Shown here piece after piece: positions 59,372-63,495 of a DNA stretch of 64,000 nucleotides (its first letter is position 1; each line of letters begins with the position of its first letter). The notes under the pieces are model-generated. The model was not told where the DNA came from, searched no databases, and saw nothing but the letters and a program-made list of their open reading frames with translations. The DNA lies in contig NZ_CP166625.1 in NCBI RefSeq assembly GCF_041320595.1, positions 3,284,001 through 3,348,000 of the forward strand, read 5' to 3'. Both the position numbers and the translations under genes were made by a program. The DNA comes from Pleomorphomonas sp. PLEO (GTDB lineage: Bacteria > Pseudomonadota > Alphaproteobacteria > Rhizobiales > Pleomorphomonadaceae).

Positions 59372-59854
59372 ATGAACACCACCATTCGTTTTTTCGCCGA
59401 GCAGCTTCGCCGGGTGACCGCTCCGCGTGATCCCAATGAGCTTTTTGCCGAGCGCCTGACCTTTGGCGAGCGCCTGGCCGACCGTGTGGCCACCATCGGT
59501 GGCTCCTGGTCGTTCATTATGGGCTTTGGGGCCTTCCTGGCCGTCTGGGCTGTCCTGAACACCGTCGTGCTGGCGGCGCGGGCCTTCGACCCGTTTCCGT
59601 TCATCTTTCTCAATCTGATGCTGTCGATGCTCGCCGCGTTGCAGGCCCCGATCATTATGATGAGCCAGAACCGCCAAGCAGCAAAAGATCGCTTTGAAGC
59701 CCGCCTCGACTACGAGACCAACCTGCGTTCGGAGGCGGAGATCGCTGGCCTGCATGCCAAGATTGACGCGCTCGGCGCCGATATCGAGCGACTCGTCGCA
59801 TTGCAGCTCGGCACGGGGGAAGGGCGAGGCAACCTCGTCGAAGAAAGCGCCTGA
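59372..59854 (+). CDS. DUF1003-family membrane protein
   Basis: A 160-residue protein with the DUF1003 pattern: FGERLADRVATIGGSWSFI, helix 1 (about 48-68), a short FDPFPFIFLNLMLS turn and helix 2 (about 78-98), followed by SQNRQAAKDR and a coiled-coil-like cytoplasmic tail (about 105-150). Function of the family is unknown. AAAGGTGAG precedes the ATG. Flanked by prmB (divergent) and the HAD gene (convergent). Confidence 0.85.
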   Translation: MNTTIRFFAEQLRRVTAPRDPNELFAERLTFGERLADRVATIGGSWSFIMGFGAFLAVWAVLNTVVLAARAFDPFPFIFLNLMLSMLAALQAPIIMMSQNRQAAKDRFEARLDYETNLRSEAEIAGLHAKIDALGADIERLVALQLGTGEGRGNLVEESA

Positions 59855-59928
59855 GACGCCGCGGGAAACGGAAACCCGCCGCGTTTTAGTCAATACTGGC
59901 CGCCGTTCGCAGAGGGTCCGACGGGCAT

Positions 59929-60624
59929 TCATTCAGCGACGAACAAAGACGAGAATTGCGGCGCGGCATAATCTGAAAAGCTCGACCATCCAACGAGTGG
60001 TTTGCCAGAGCGGATCAAGGCGGCAACTCCCGCCCGGCGAGCTGCTTCTCCATCCCGATCGGCGCGATCGCCAATCATGATCGTTTCCTGTGGACCGACA
60101 CACGCGGCCGCCATGATAACTTCCAGTCCGCGCGGGTTCGGTTTGAGTATTCCGACCCCAGCATCCGTGGCCGAGACGATGAAATCCGCCTTCAGGCCCA
60201 TGGCGCGAAGTTTGTCTTCAGCCGGGTAATCGGAAAAGACACCGATGAGTTTGTCGCGCCTTTTCAAGGCAACGAAAAGGTCTTCGATATGCGGGCAGAG
60301 GCAGGCACCTATATGCGCAAGGGGACGGCGTTCCATCCACTCGTGTACGAGCGCCGCTATCTTCGCTTTGTCGATGCGCGCTTTTTGTGACGTACGATCG
60401 AGCAGGATATCGTCAAAGTCCTGAACTTCCTCATCGCCGATCTTTTCGCGCAATTGGCGATAAGCGCGAAGGACGCGCAACGTCGTCAGAGATCGCGAAG
60501 CCAGCGTATGGCTGACGAGATCCGTCAGCATGCGCAAGCGTAACGATTTTTGATCGTAGAGCGTTCCGTCCACGTCGAAAACAACAAGGCGAATGCTGTC
60601 CCAGTTCATCGTCATTCCCGTCAT
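59929..60624 (-). CDS. HAD-family phosphatase coupled to a UbiA gene
   Basis: A 231-residue HAD hydrolase: motif I VVFDVDGTLYD (Asp17, Asp19), motif II FSDYP, motif III Lys in ILKPNPRG and motif IV MIGDRADRDGEAA. ATG 60624 overlaps the stop of the UbiA-type gene (ATGA), so translation is coupled. Other ATGs follow at 60615 and 60609. In polyprenyl-phosphate pentose pathways a phosphatase removes the 5-phosphate after the UbiA-type step, and the coupling fits this; direct evidence is lacking. Confidence 0.85.
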   Translation of the reverse strand: MTGMTMNWDSIRLVVFDVDGTLYDQKSLRLRMLTDLVSHTLASRSLTTLRVLRAYRQLREKIGDEEVQDFDDILLDRTSQKARIDKAKIAALVHEWMERRPLAHIGACLCPHIEDLFVALKRRDKLIGVFSDYPAEDKLRAMGLKADFIVSATDAGVGILKPNPRGLEVIMAAACVGPQETIMIGDRADRDGEAARRAGVAALIRSGKPLVGWSSFSDYAAPQFSSLFVAE

Positions 60625-61607
60625 TTGAGGACGATGAAATGCTGAGAGGCGAGCCCTGCCAGAACTGGCATGTCGACAAAGCTGGCCAGCGTGAATACCG
60701 CCACTAGCGCCACGACGATCATGATCAGCCTGGTTTCTCGAAAAAGTGTCTCGGGCTTTTGAGCGGACGACCCAGCGAGTGTCGACATCGAAAAATAGAC
60801 CGTGAACAGCGCCACGACAAACGGCATCGCGAGAATGTATTCGATGCGGTACTTAACTATAAAAACAGAGAGAAACACAACTGAGCATAAGGAATATGTA
60901 ATGCACGAAGAGGTCAGGGATACTTCAGAGTAACTTGAAAAGCTGGCGCGATAGCGTGCGAGTAAATCTACGCCATATGCCGCGACTATCTCACGGTATT
61001 CAGAAAGCCGCTTTGCCGCCATTAGAAAAGCCCCGCCAAACCAATACGACAGAATTAAAGAACTGGGTGGCAGCGACGTTGGGTCGATGATTGACCAGCC
61101 GATAATAAGACGAATTGGATTGTTGATCGATTCAGAGATTACGTCGACATAAGCCTTGTCCTTGCTGCGCAATGGATAGACGTTGTAGACGATTCCTTGG
61201 AGCGCAAAGAGACAGGCAGTGGCAAATAGCAGCTTGCTCGACATGATCGCACAGGTAAGGCCGACGCTCACGAACAGCGCCCATTCAGCGGCAACGATGC
61301 CGCCGTTCATTTGTCGTTGAACCGCCGCGCGCTGGGATTTGGTCGGATGATGCCGGTCAAAATCGCGATCAAGGAATTCATTGATCACGTAATTTGCAGA
61401 AGCAATACAAACGGCCGTCAGGAAGCCGAGAATGAGCGATTGGCCCAAATGTTCGGTCCGAACACCGCGAAGCAAGAAGGCGAGGATGATGCCCGGGACT
61501 ATAAAGACATGCTTAGTGCTGTGATCAAGCCTCGCGATTGCGATGTAGTCTTTGAGTACGGCAGCTCTCGATTTTTGGCTCGGCGTTTCATGGCGCTCTG
61601 AAAACAT
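60621..61607 (-). CDS. UbiA-family prenyltransferase, polyprenyl-phosphate phosphoribosyltransferase-like
   Basis: An integral membrane protein of 328 residues with about eight or nine helices. The first Asp-rich motif is NEFLDRDFDRHHPTKSQR (76-93). The DRxHPTKxxR ending is characteristic of decaprenyl-phosphate 5-phosphoribosyltransferases, which join PRPP to polyprenyl phosphate, and not of quinone or haem prenyltransferases. A second SESINNPIRL loop replaces the usual acidic motif. It lies between a GT-C membrane protein and a HAD phosphatase. Base composition is visibly lower in GC than the rest. Function in pentofuranose donor synthesis is inference. Confidence 0.82.
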   Translation of the reverse strand: MFSERHETPSQKSRAAVLKDYIAIARLDHSTKHVFIVPGIILAFLLRGVRTEHLGQSLILGFLTAVCIASANYVINEFLDRDFDRHHPTKSQRAAVQRQMNGGIVAAEWALFVSVGLTCAIMSSKLLFATACLFALQGIVYNVYPLRSKDKAYVDVISESINNPIRLIIGWSIIDPTSLPPSSLILSYWFGGAFLMAAKRLSEYREIVAAYGVDLLARYRASFSSYSEVSLTSSCITYSLCSVVFLSVFIVKYRIEYILAMPFVVALFTVYFSMSTLAGSSAQKPETLFRETRLIMIVVALVAVFTLASFVDMPVLAGLASQHFIVLK

Positions 61608-61649
61608 GCTTCCTCTATGTGTCTTGTAGGAATCGTCCGGCAGACAAGA

Positions 61650-63182
61650 TCAATCTAGCAAATACACGTCATAGCTTTCATCCGATACCGCGGGGGCAAA
61701 CTGCGCGAGCCGCTGCGTCGCCCCCATGAATTCCTTTATCTCTTCAGTGCTGGCTTTAAATGACCAATTATAGCCTTCGTGATAAAGTTTATCCGGGACC
61801 ATCTCATCCAGCCTGTGCGATAAAAGGATGATGACCGGGGCGTTTGTCGTCTTTTTCAGTTCGCGGCTCTCATCAAGAATCTCGCCGAGCGTGGTTGTAA
61901 GCTCGCCGGTTCGGCTGAAAATGACGAAGCGGCCCAAACCGTGCTTGCGGATCAGGTAGGTTGGATTGGGAACATAATACGGCAGTGCTTCAACCAGATA
62001 ATCGGGGTCGGCGATGATGGTGGCGTTGGCCAGATCGCTTCGTGACAGAATTAATTTCCCGAGATCAGCACTACGACTCTCGACGGGGGCTAGGTGTGCG
62101 ATCCTCAGGAAGCCCAAATATATTCCCTTGGCAGTCTGCTGGGTAATCAGGACCATAAATCCAAACATTCCGGCTATGACAAGTTTCTTGGACCATGATG
62201 GCTCCGCCGTGGCCATTGTTGCTTTTTCGATGTCCCTCCAGGAGATCCAGTATAACATCACGCAGTAAAAAAACCATACACCGGCATGTCTCTGATCGCC
62301 GGAGCCAATTACGCTGAAGAATACGGCGCAAATGAACAGCGAAAATAAGGCAGAAAAGAAGGCTGGCCGGCGCGAAAGTAGTCCAAATGGCAATATTATA
62401 AAGAAAATTGATTTGATTATGGATGGATAGTCTCCAAACAAGATGGTAGAAATGGCGGTCCTGCCAGGATTTAGAAGAGCCCTGATCACTATCTGTACAA
62501 GCGAAACCCCTTGCAGGTCGCGCGTCGCGGCATCGTTGAAGGTTGGTAGAATGGTCAGGGCGCAAATTGCGACGCCCGCAGTGGCAAGGCCGGCGTTGAG
62601 AGCAAAAGTGCCCAATTTGGCGCTCCAACGTAAACCTGTCTCCTCCAAGACGTCGAGAAACCAAAAAAGCAGGAAGGCGCCGACCATCATTGCGCCAATA
62701 ATATTGGTGTTGGCCAGAATAAAAAGCAGAAGACCGACGACAAAACCTCGATCGCGTTGCCTTTCGTAGGCGATGGCTATCAGAAACATTACGAGTACCG
62801 AAATACCGTAGTTCCGCGCCATCACTGAATATTCAAACGATAAAAGGCTGCCGAATGTAAGCGCCACGACGATGAGGCGCGGAAATGGTGATCGGAAAAT
62901 CAATAGCGCAACTGCGCCAGCTGCTATGAGTAATGCCGTAGCAGGTAAAATCTCTACTCGACCGAACAGAAAATAGAAGGCGCGAATCATTAAATACCAG
63001 GCGGACGGATGACCTTCTCCGTGCAGAACTTTGAGCATGTCAAATGTATTATTTCCGCTCAAAGCGATGGAAAGTGCGCGAACTTCGTCACGCCACATAG
63101 CGTGGTCATAAACCTGAAATGCTACAACGATGAACCAGGCCAAGAACAAAATAATACCAACCGCACTATCCCTCCTCGACAT
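61650..63182 (-). CDS. GT-C-fold polytopic membrane glycosyltransferase-like protein
   Basis: A 510-residue membrane protein with about ten helices and a C-terminal soluble domain (about 375-510). The first periplasmic loop carries Asp32-Glu33 in YDHAMWRDEVRALSIAL, matching the acidic metal/donor motif of GT-C enzymes that use lipid-phosphate sugars. GHPSAWYLMIR is a further typical segment. It is the first gene of the cassette with the UbiA and HAD genes, 42 bases apart. Donor and acceptor are unknown; a polyprenyl-phosphate pentose made next door is the natural guess. Low-GC codon use, with many AT-ending codons. Confidence 0.78.
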   Translation of the reverse strand: MSRRDSAVGIILFLAWFIVVAFQVYDHAMWRDEVRALSIALSGNNTFDMLKVLHGEGHPSAWYLMIRAFYFLFGRVEILPATALLIAAGAVALLIFRSPFPRLIVVALTFGSLLSFEYSVMARNYGISVLVMFLIAIAYERQRDRGFVVGLLLFILANTNIIGAMMVGAFLLFWFLDVLEETGLRWSAKLGTFALNAGLATAGVAICALTILPTFNDAATRDLQGVSLVQIVIRALLNPGRTAISTILFGDYPSIIKSIFFIILPFGLLSRRPAFFSALFSLFICAVFFSVIGSGDQRHAGVWFFYCVMLYWISWRDIEKATMATAEPSWSKKLVIAGMFGFMVLITQQTAKGIYLGFLRIAHLAPVESRSADLGKLILSRSDLANATIIADPDYLVEALPYYVPNPTYLIRKHGLGRFVIFSRTGELTTTLGEILDESRELKKTTNAPVIILLSHRLDEMVPDKLYHEGYNWSFKASTEEIKEFMGATQRLAQFAPAVSDESYDVYLLD

Positions 63183-63420
63183 TCTCTTGCTCCAAAAGCG
63201 ATGAAATCGCGACCTGTTTCAGTTTTGCGCGCCGGCTCTCTATGGAGAGAACAGGACTACGCCATGACCATTGACCTGGGCATCCGGGGCAGGGGCAGAA
63301 GGACCACGGAATCTACCGAGATGGTCATCGGACGAGAAGGTTAACGAATCGTTTGGCAATGATGCGCATCGCGCCTTGCGTAGCGTTTCAATTGCAATGA
63401 ATTCAAGGGGGGTGTTGGGG

Positions 63421-63495
63421 TGGTACGGCCTACGGGAATCGAACCCGTCTCTCCAGCGTGAAAGGCTAGTGTCCTAACCGATAGACGAAGGCCGC
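63421..63495 (-). tRNA. tRNA-Glu (anticodon TTC)
   Basis: Minus-strand cloverleaf: acceptor GCGGCCT/AGGCCGT, D-stem GTCT/GGAC, anticodon stem CTAGC/GCTGG around CTTTCAC, T-arm ACGGG-TTCGATT-CCCGT, discriminator A and encoded CCA. The anticodon TTC reads Glu codons. The first pair is a G-U wobble. It lies between the glycan cassette and the DUF882 gene. Confidence 0.95.

Follow-up and report, generated by a model that had tools for sequence, protein, structure and literature searches.

Three minus-strand orfs in the analysed window (the whole stretch of 64,000 nucleotides from Pleomorphomonas sp. PLEO) probably constitute a horizontally moved cassette for extracytoplasmic ribofuranosylation. 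Computation gave the predicted folds, the clade, the conservation of the active sites, the association of the genes, the absence of DprE1 from loci of the clade and the swappable slot, and from them we infer four steps and the identity of the sugar. A UbiA-superfamily protein would use PRPP as donor to place 5-phosphoribose on a polyprenyl phosphate, presumably undecaprenyl phosphate; a HAD phosphatase would strip the 5′-phosphate to leave polyprenyl-phosphate-ribofuranose; a flippase encoded outside the cassette, for which GtrA homologues are candidates, would export the lipid-linked ribofuranose; and a GT-C enzyme would pass the ribofuranose to a surface glycan or glycoprotein. The sequence-only reading had proposed reaction of PRPP with lipid phosphate, dephosphorylation and sugar transfer, and the computations support it with a DPPRS-like UbiA protein, intact HAD motifs and a GT-C model. 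If the proposal is right, Hyphomicrobium, Rhizobium, Bradyrhizobium, Acetobacter, Duganella, Sphingomonas, Paracoccus and gut Lachnospiraceae are predicted to carry ribofuranose on their surface glycans.

The three orfs, confirmed at 59929-63182, encode the HAD phosphatase (59929..60624, 231 aa), the UbiA protein (60621..61607, 328 aa) and a membrane protein (61650..63182, 510 aa). The first two share four bases, in agreement with the ATGA overlap reported earlier, and a gap of 42 bases separates the UbiA and membrane protein orfs. The cassette is the cargo of a swappable slot (59853..63412) that extends from a DUF1003 gene to a tRNA-Glu gene and contains exactly these three genes. The flanks align with those of another genome (G010, locus L107) up to 59852 and again from 63413, with different DNA between, and the left-flank alignments of two further genomes (G001 and G005) also stop at the same slot edge. 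ARAGORN places a single tRNA-Glu (ttc) at 63421..63495 on the minus strand, and the GC content is 0.519 in the slot versus 0.624 in positions 1-59852 of the window, so that the block adjoins a tRNA-Glu gene and is richer in AT than the rest, as had been noted. None of ten short direct-repeat families examined as attachment repeats pairs both slot edges. A promoter scan gave one weak site, below the mean of 3.0 in shuffled sequences, and the sole PADLOC match to defence genes was the HAD orf, weakly (E 0.0021).

Among 80 loci encoding relatives of the window UbiA protein, the exact triplet recurs at two (L025 and L028); Rhizobium sp. BK650 is an example of a relative that carries it. The conservation check that the sequence-only reading had asked for thus has a mixed outcome. 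Strict conservation of all three genes as a unit was not found; what is widely kept is the UbiA-HAD pair, with a HAD gene within 4 kb of UbiA at 62 of the 80 loci, and the GT-C gene is exchangeable. The HADs near UbiA are of three types, never two in one locus, with the window type at 45/80 loci; the 18 loci that have none within 4 kb include some cut by contig ends. A second type, found at 14 loci up to 2.8 kb from UbiA and on the opposite strand in four, has 41-46% sequence identity to the phosphatase part of a HAD-UbiA fusion encoded elsewhere in the Pleomorphomonas genome in nine Bradyrhizobium loci and 32-36% in the five others. Eight Bradyrhizobium genomes have a GT-C-UbiA pair with no HAD nearby, and seven of them encode a HAD of the second type elsewhere. 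The presence of at most one HAD per locus, of varying type, one type resembling the fused phosphatase, suggests that HADs of different families substitute for each other.

The cassette HAD (type A; Pfam PF00702, E 2.9e-19) is the putative 5′-phosphatase of polyprenyl-phospho-ribose-5-phosphate. Residues D17, D19, G20, T21, S131, K161, G185, D186 and D191, which we take to be HAD motifs I-IV, are kept in all 46 family members, the window protein included; the first four lie in the motif I sequence DVDGT (residues 17-21; 60562..60576, minus strand).

The membrane protein has no Pfam match, and a search of the PDB by sequence with the GT-C family gave one match, at chance level. It models as a GT-C glycosyltransferase with an additional C-terminal alpha/beta part and is a putative pentofuranosyltransferase: in the AlphaFold2 model (pLDDT 76.2, moderate confidence), VIA rows 1-21 are GT-C enzymes or their complexes, read with the caution that Z scores near 13 can occur among helical proteins in such a fold search. 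Foldseek alone is weak, with a single match that reaches E 0.001 (8.8e-4). After the first helix of the model comes D32-E33 (63084..63089, minus strand), a putative catalytic acidic pair that is invariant in 12/12 aligned homologues. The Asp-Glu motif claimed before is thus present, and the model supports the GT-C assignment. An iterated profile search from the window-type GT-C gathered that type alone and no other GT-C families, and at full length this type adjoins UbiA in 11/80 loci. UbiA has a multi-TM neighbour at 51/80 loci by curated types, one of them (L044) on the opposite strand, or at 56/80 under crude rules that take in opposite-strand genes and some transporter-like types and miss overlapped T2 genes. 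On the UbiA tree, the GT-C type switches at least 11 times over 34 rows with curated types (23 of 57 rows dropped for want of a GT-C type) or 17 times over 41 rows with crude types (16 of 57 dropped), and the HAD type four times over 47 rows (10 of 57 dropped for want of a HAD type). Frequent switching of the GT-C and less of the HAD is what one would expect if the GT-C sets acceptor specificity and is joined to a donor module that changes less.

The UbiA protein belongs to Pfam PF01040 (E 1.9e-15). It scores 60.1 bits against the NCBIfam model of decaprenyl-phosphate phosphoribosyltransferase (NF008977), far under the cut-off of 234, which the fused HAD-UbiA protein of the same genome likewise fails to reach (141.7 bits). 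The top PDB match by sequence is 8j8j (E 5.5e-16, profile A1) together with its mutant 8j8k, followed by 4tq3 and, as a weak match, 4od4. By fold, 8j8j_A again comes first (Z 27.5, rmsd 2.5 over 284 aligned residues, with 19% identity in the structural alignment), and Foldseek also ranks it first (E 2.0e-7). Other UbiA-superfamily folds score Z 23.8 or below, the second being the archaeal prenyltransferase 4tq4 (Z 23.8); at Z 23.7 the mutant 8j8k, a structure with bound acceptor, does not outscore 4tq4.

The putative Mg/PRPP site is NEFLDRDFDRHHPTKSQR (residues 76-93; 61329..61382, minus strand), in which N76, D80, K90 and R93 align with N73, D77, K87 and R90 of Rv3806c. The motif had been described as having the DPPRS form; it is present, but the DPPRS form is N-D, found in Rv3806c and in 14/14 rows of the other clade, and the window clade has N-E (N-E-x2-D-x3-D) in 80/80 rows, which are the window plus 79 loci, L086 being excluded for its broken frame. 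The N-E/N-D split has support of 77 with CyoE in the tree (CyoE branch length 10) and 100 without it, both being quick trees with long-branch warnings. Because their motif is not N-D, the N-E proteins are filed as a sister clade and not as DPPRS members, although they are expected to work like DPPRS. They are separate from the phosphatase, paired with exchangeable GT-C proteins and often accompanied by GtrA.

Within up to 6 kb on each side of UbiA, DprE1 occurs in 0/80 loci of the N-E clade. In the other clade it occurs in 8/14 loci, these 14 all being from the taxonomic order of the window and three of them from one genome. The absence of DprE1 from the loci of the N-E clade favours unepimerised ribofuranose, as had been guessed. 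The earlier statement that epimerase genes are lacking holds locally, but not for the genome: near 2.145 Mb of contig C1, 1.2 Mb from the cassette, the gene for the HAD-UbiA fusion is followed by a DprE1-like gene (PF01565) and a DprE2-like gene (an SDR in the DprE2 position). With these genes the exported sugar could be arabinofuranose, if polyprenyl-phosphate-ribofuranose from the cassette were epimerised in trans before use by the GT-C enzyme. Such cross-feeding seems unlikely, as the 2.145-Mb cluster has its own HAD-UbiA protein and an 11-TM protein, the absence of DprE1 from all 80 loci argues against it, and the slot cargo includes no DprE1. If the proposal is right, this genome has both branches of the pathway, which makes donor and epimer flow addressable in one cell. 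Among phages, one partial match to the fused type was found (MT837543.1).

Agreement of the active site with the preferred reading, in which PRPP is the donor, is partial. Passages of the Rv3806c study name 13 residues in contact with PRPP or lipid phosphate (PMC10994848). Ten of these (R22, K28, Y70, N73, D77, K87, R90, Y138, K143 and K191 in Rv3806c numbering) are identical in the window protein, in 57/57 rows of the N-E clade, which comprise the window and 56 of its 80 related loci, and in 14/14 rows of the other clade. Three differ: Q135, which contacts ribose O3, is G138 in the window protein; Y157, which contacts the 5′-phosphate and lipid phosphate, is N163; and K208 is A221. D74 of Rv3806c corresponds to E77. 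Around the ribose pocket, E77, G138, E159, N162, N163 and W171 are clade-wide, each in 56 or 57 of 57 rows. These residues might indicate that the enzyme keeps the fold and is an active transferase but takes another phosphosugar diphosphate as donor, or another lipid as acceptor, such that the final sugar is not ribose; this is quite improbable given that the clade keeps R22, K87, R90 and K143, which bind pyrophosphate, as well as the Mg ligands N73 and D77, and retains the association with a phosphatase. A more speculative and rather unlikely possibility is that the N-E proteins make up a class of their own among synthases of lipid-linked sugars, disseminated over several phyla by gene transfer, and that their altered ribose pocket is selective for a donor or stereochemistry unlike that of DPPRS. 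Together with GtrA and with phosphatases and GT-C heads that can be swapped, such synthases would serve as a general platform for modifying glycans with a pentofuranose that has yet to be recognised in these bacteria. It is highly improbable that the UbiA protein is an ordinary prenyltransferase of the quinone, haem or chlorophyll type and that the phosphatase and membrane protein next to it are unrelated. In favour of that reading are the shared Pfam family, a TIGR01473 (heme o synthase) score of 31.6 bits, far short of the 210.3 cut-off, and the second-best fold. It was rejected on active-site letters (equivalents of K28, Y70 and K87, present in the window protein, are absent from the CyoE of the same genome and from the N-terminal part of the quinone UbiA encoded there), on the conserved UbiA-HAD pairing and on best matches. 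These are to decaprenyl-phosphate phosphoribosyltransferases (NF008977 and 8j8j) and not to the quinone, chlorophyll or haem O synthases that would have spoken against the sequence-only reading.

The ribofuranosylation cassette looks like a distinct variant of the three-component pentofuranose pathway of Kelly et al. (2024), in which the chemistry was demonstrated with a GT-C enzyme and a protein that joins HAD and UbiA in one chain (PMC11127046). In Citrobacter youngae O1/O2, the components are the HAD-UbiA PPPRS ORF15, the MATE flippase ORF14 and the GT-C enzyme ORF12 of family GT136 (PMC11127046). Both gene sets combine a UbiA-type polyprenyl-phosphate phosphoribose synthase, a HAD phosphatase and a GT-C protein, and both would yield ribofuranose when no epimerase acts. 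The Citrobacter HAD and UbiA are fused, whereas those of the cassette are encoded by separate genes; its motif is N247-D248 (PMC11127046) in place of N-E; and the cassette HAD is of the PF00702 type, the fused type being represented in this comparison by the fusion of the Pleomorphomonas genome, which is of the PF12710 type. In contrast to the MATE flippase of Citrobacter, no flippase (MATE or GtrA/SMR) was found among the cassette orfs, but GtrA is near UbiA in 26/80 relatives and three GtrA homologues are encoded elsewhere in the same genome. Since the locus has no flippase, the cassette is said to work like the three-component system, as a variant.

With the mycobacterial decaprenyl-phosphate arabinose pathway (Rv3806c, Rv3807c, DprE1/DprE2, Rv3789, Emb/Aft), the cassette shares the fold of the first enzyme, most PRPP-contact residues and the predicted GT-C fold of the last enzyme. 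It differs in its N-E motif, in the low identity of the structural alignment and in the lack of DprE1 from the loci of its clade; moreover, the cassette phosphatase is a HAD, whereas Rv3807c is reported to have no relation to that family (PMC11127046). An analogy to arabinan synthesis and to noe genes was drawn earlier; the nearest precedent is the three-component system (PMC11127046), not noe. The authors of the Azorhizobium noeCHOP study liken these Nod-factor arabinosylation genes to mycobacterial arabinosylation genes, and by their description the noe genes differ from the cassette in lying in a nod operon and being thought to make a D-arabinose precursor (PMC2443382).

The gtr O-antigen glucosylation modules make their donor through GtrB from a nucleotide sugar, whereas the cassette is predicted to make its donor through UbiA and HAD proteins from PRPP. 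Like the cassette, gtr modules have a mobile setting next to a tRNA gene. A steadier donor module, an exchangeable GT-C head and a GtrA-type flippase are further shared features (PMC11127046). If the proposal is right, the polyprenyl-phosphate ribose pathway has a second branch, free-standing and mobile, with the architecture of the gtr modules, and the cassette represents it.

The cassette consists of three minus-strand genes, encoding a GT-C-like protein (61650-63182), a UbiA-family protein (60621-61607) and a HAD protein (59929-60624, overlapping the UbiA gene by four bases), which fill 59929-63182 between a DUF1003 gene and a tRNA-Glu gene. The GC content of this slot is 0.519, versus 0.624 for the window DNA to its left. 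The source genome containing the window is a single contig of 5.48 Mb. In a genome of the same genus (G010), both flanks align at 81-86%, up to window position 59852 and from 63413 on, and the interior is approximately 7.6 kb of different DNA with no blastn match to the cassette; in G001 and G005, for which only the left flank was compared, it breaks off at most about 45 bases from the same point. Because the flanks stop there, the cassette is the exact cargo of a variable slot with its edge at tRNA-Glu. Read by eye, the slot of G010 (L107:2089-9225) and that of a further genome in the genus (L109:1-6315) carry genes resembling those for zinc-ribbon, SPFH-like and spermidine-synthase-like proteins and for small membrane proteins.

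The best NCBIfam model for the UbiA protein is decaprenyl-phosphate phosphoribosyltransferase, at a score far below the model cut-off. A PDB search with the single sequence matched solely 8j8j, the structure of this enzyme from Mycobacterium (Rv3806c; E 2.8e-7), and the family profile matched 8j8j (5.5e-16), its mutant 8j8k (1.7e-8), 4tq3 (4.8e-8) and, weakly, 4od4. The AlphaFold2 model (pLDDT 90.8) has 8j8j_A as its top fold (Z 27.5, 284 residues, rmsd 2.5), followed by 4tq4_A (Z 23.8) and 8j8k_A (Z 23.7). Of the substrate contacts of Rv3806c given in passages of PMC10994848 (R22, K28, Y70, N73, D77, K87, R90, Q135, Y138, K143, Y157, K191 and K208), 10 of 13 are identical in the window protein and in all 57 compared rows of its clade (the window and 56 relative loci); Q135 is changed to G138, Y157 to N163 and K208 to A221 in the window protein, as the profile alignment also shows. 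The window protein keeps the equivalents of K28, Y70 and K87, which neither the CyoE of the genome nor the first matched piece of its quinone-type UbiA has. That quinone-type ubiA (G000:C1:4890461-4891197 of the source contig; L117, L119) was matched as two pieces with a TGA within the first match, either an assembly error or a real break. One branch splits the 57 clade rows, which have N-E where Rv3806c has N-D, from 15 others with SH-aLRT 100, or 77 when CyoE is included, both being quick trees that carry long-branch warnings. The clade is marked by E77, G138, E159, N162, N163 and W171, each present in 56 or 57 of the 57 rows.

No close relative of this UbiA was found in any of 13 other genomes of the genus, which gave one weak match (E 4.5e-5) of the fused HAD-UbiA type; at E 1e-30, matches were found in 6 of 385 genomes sampled from the class, counting the source genome. 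One pattern-based scan of genome contigs confirmed 97 relatives, of which the best 80 were kept (42-72% identity). By record title these belong to Pseudomonadota, Bacteroidota, Bacillota, Nitrospirota, Verrucomicrobiota, Elusimicrobiota, Myxococcota and Synergistota; many are metagenome bins, some possibly misbinned (a Myxococcales bin clusters with Paracoccus in the tree), and those without a MAG title are from the first three phyla only.

Among these best 80 of 97, a HAD gene lies within 4 kb of UbiA at 62 loci (45 of the window type, 14 of the type that HAD-UbiA fusions contain and 3 of yet another), and none has two together. Nine of the 18 loci with no HAD in that range are Bradyrhizobium with a GT-C-UbiA pair; seven of their eight searchable genomes have a fused-type HAD elsewhere, with no UbiA relative beside it at two sites (12-13 kb examined). 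GtrA is near UbiA at 26 of the best 80 loci. Two Chitinophagaceae loci (L069 and L071) have the UbiA-HAD pair flanked by sulfatase and GH20 genes (families scanned in L069), unusual surroundings for a glycan-building module. A methyltransferase gene near UbiA in 5 of the best 80 (L082, L083, L087, L089, L093; PF13489 in L082 and L087, where scanned) hints at a methylated sugar.

In 11 of the best 80 loci, from Bradyrhizobium and Rhizobium, a full-length GT-C of the window type with 47-52% identity adjoins UbiA; at other loci different multi-TM families, including T0, T2, PMT_2-type and GT87-type, occupy that place. On the UbiA tree, GT-C type changes at least 11 times (34 rows, curated to same-strand, GT-C-like families; 17 changes over 41 rows before curation), HAD type 4 times (47 rows) and GtrA presence 8 times (57 rows). 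In three Rhizobium loci (L032-L034) the window-type GT-C beside UbiA is reduced to fragments, and a GT-C 35-38% identical is found elsewhere in R. johnstonii 3841 and R. aethiopicum HBR26. These loci, on pRL10 of R. johnstonii 3841 and in relatives, have an intact UbiA-HAD pair with GtrA; the L034 genome has its distant GT-C copy at another place (L137). The window GT-C model (pLDDT 76.2) resembles Pmt1-Pmt2 (Z 14.5), ALG6 (14.1), ArnT (12.9), AftA (10.9) and EmbB (10.8); Foldseek by itself was weak (best E 8.8e-4). Its D32-E33 is unchanged in 12 of 12 sequences.

DprE1 is near UbiA at none of the best 80 loci, and in a control of 14 other-clade loci, with flanks of only about 1.5 kb, it adjoins UbiA in 8 (all 14 from the window's order, three from one genome, one having supplied the query). 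Weak DprE2-like SDR matches occur in three Duganella loci (29-33% across 92-113 residues). The sequence-only reading saw no epimerase genes, which holds within the window but not genome-wide, because a second lipid-linked pentose cluster (G000:C1:2142953-2150993, at 2.143-2.151 Mb; L105:5954-13994) has a DprE1-like gene and an SDR at the DprE2 position. It also encodes a 510-aa HAD-UbiA fusion of the N-D type and a 532-aa protein that has 11 hydrophobic segments and matches no Pfam family, with GtrA farther along. Adjoining genes resemble sugar-nucleotide genes by eye.

The comparison with noe genes is based on passages of PMC2443382. No other paper visibly describing the window UbiA clade was found in the literature searched; one may still exist. 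In Citrobacter youngae, according to PMC11127046, a HAD-UbiA fusion demonstrably converts PRPP into farnesyl-P-ribofuranose and the GT-C ORF12 (GT136) transfers the sugar, with a MATE flippase as the proposed exporter; the authors call this type of system widespread, and their main text contains no word that starts with Rhizobium or Azorhizobium. Measured against that account, the cassette belongs to this recently described class of systems and is, credibly and with good computational support, a new predicted variant of it: its UbiA is from a different clade, its phosphatases are free-standing and exchangeable, GtrA is near many of its relatives, and DprE1 is missing.
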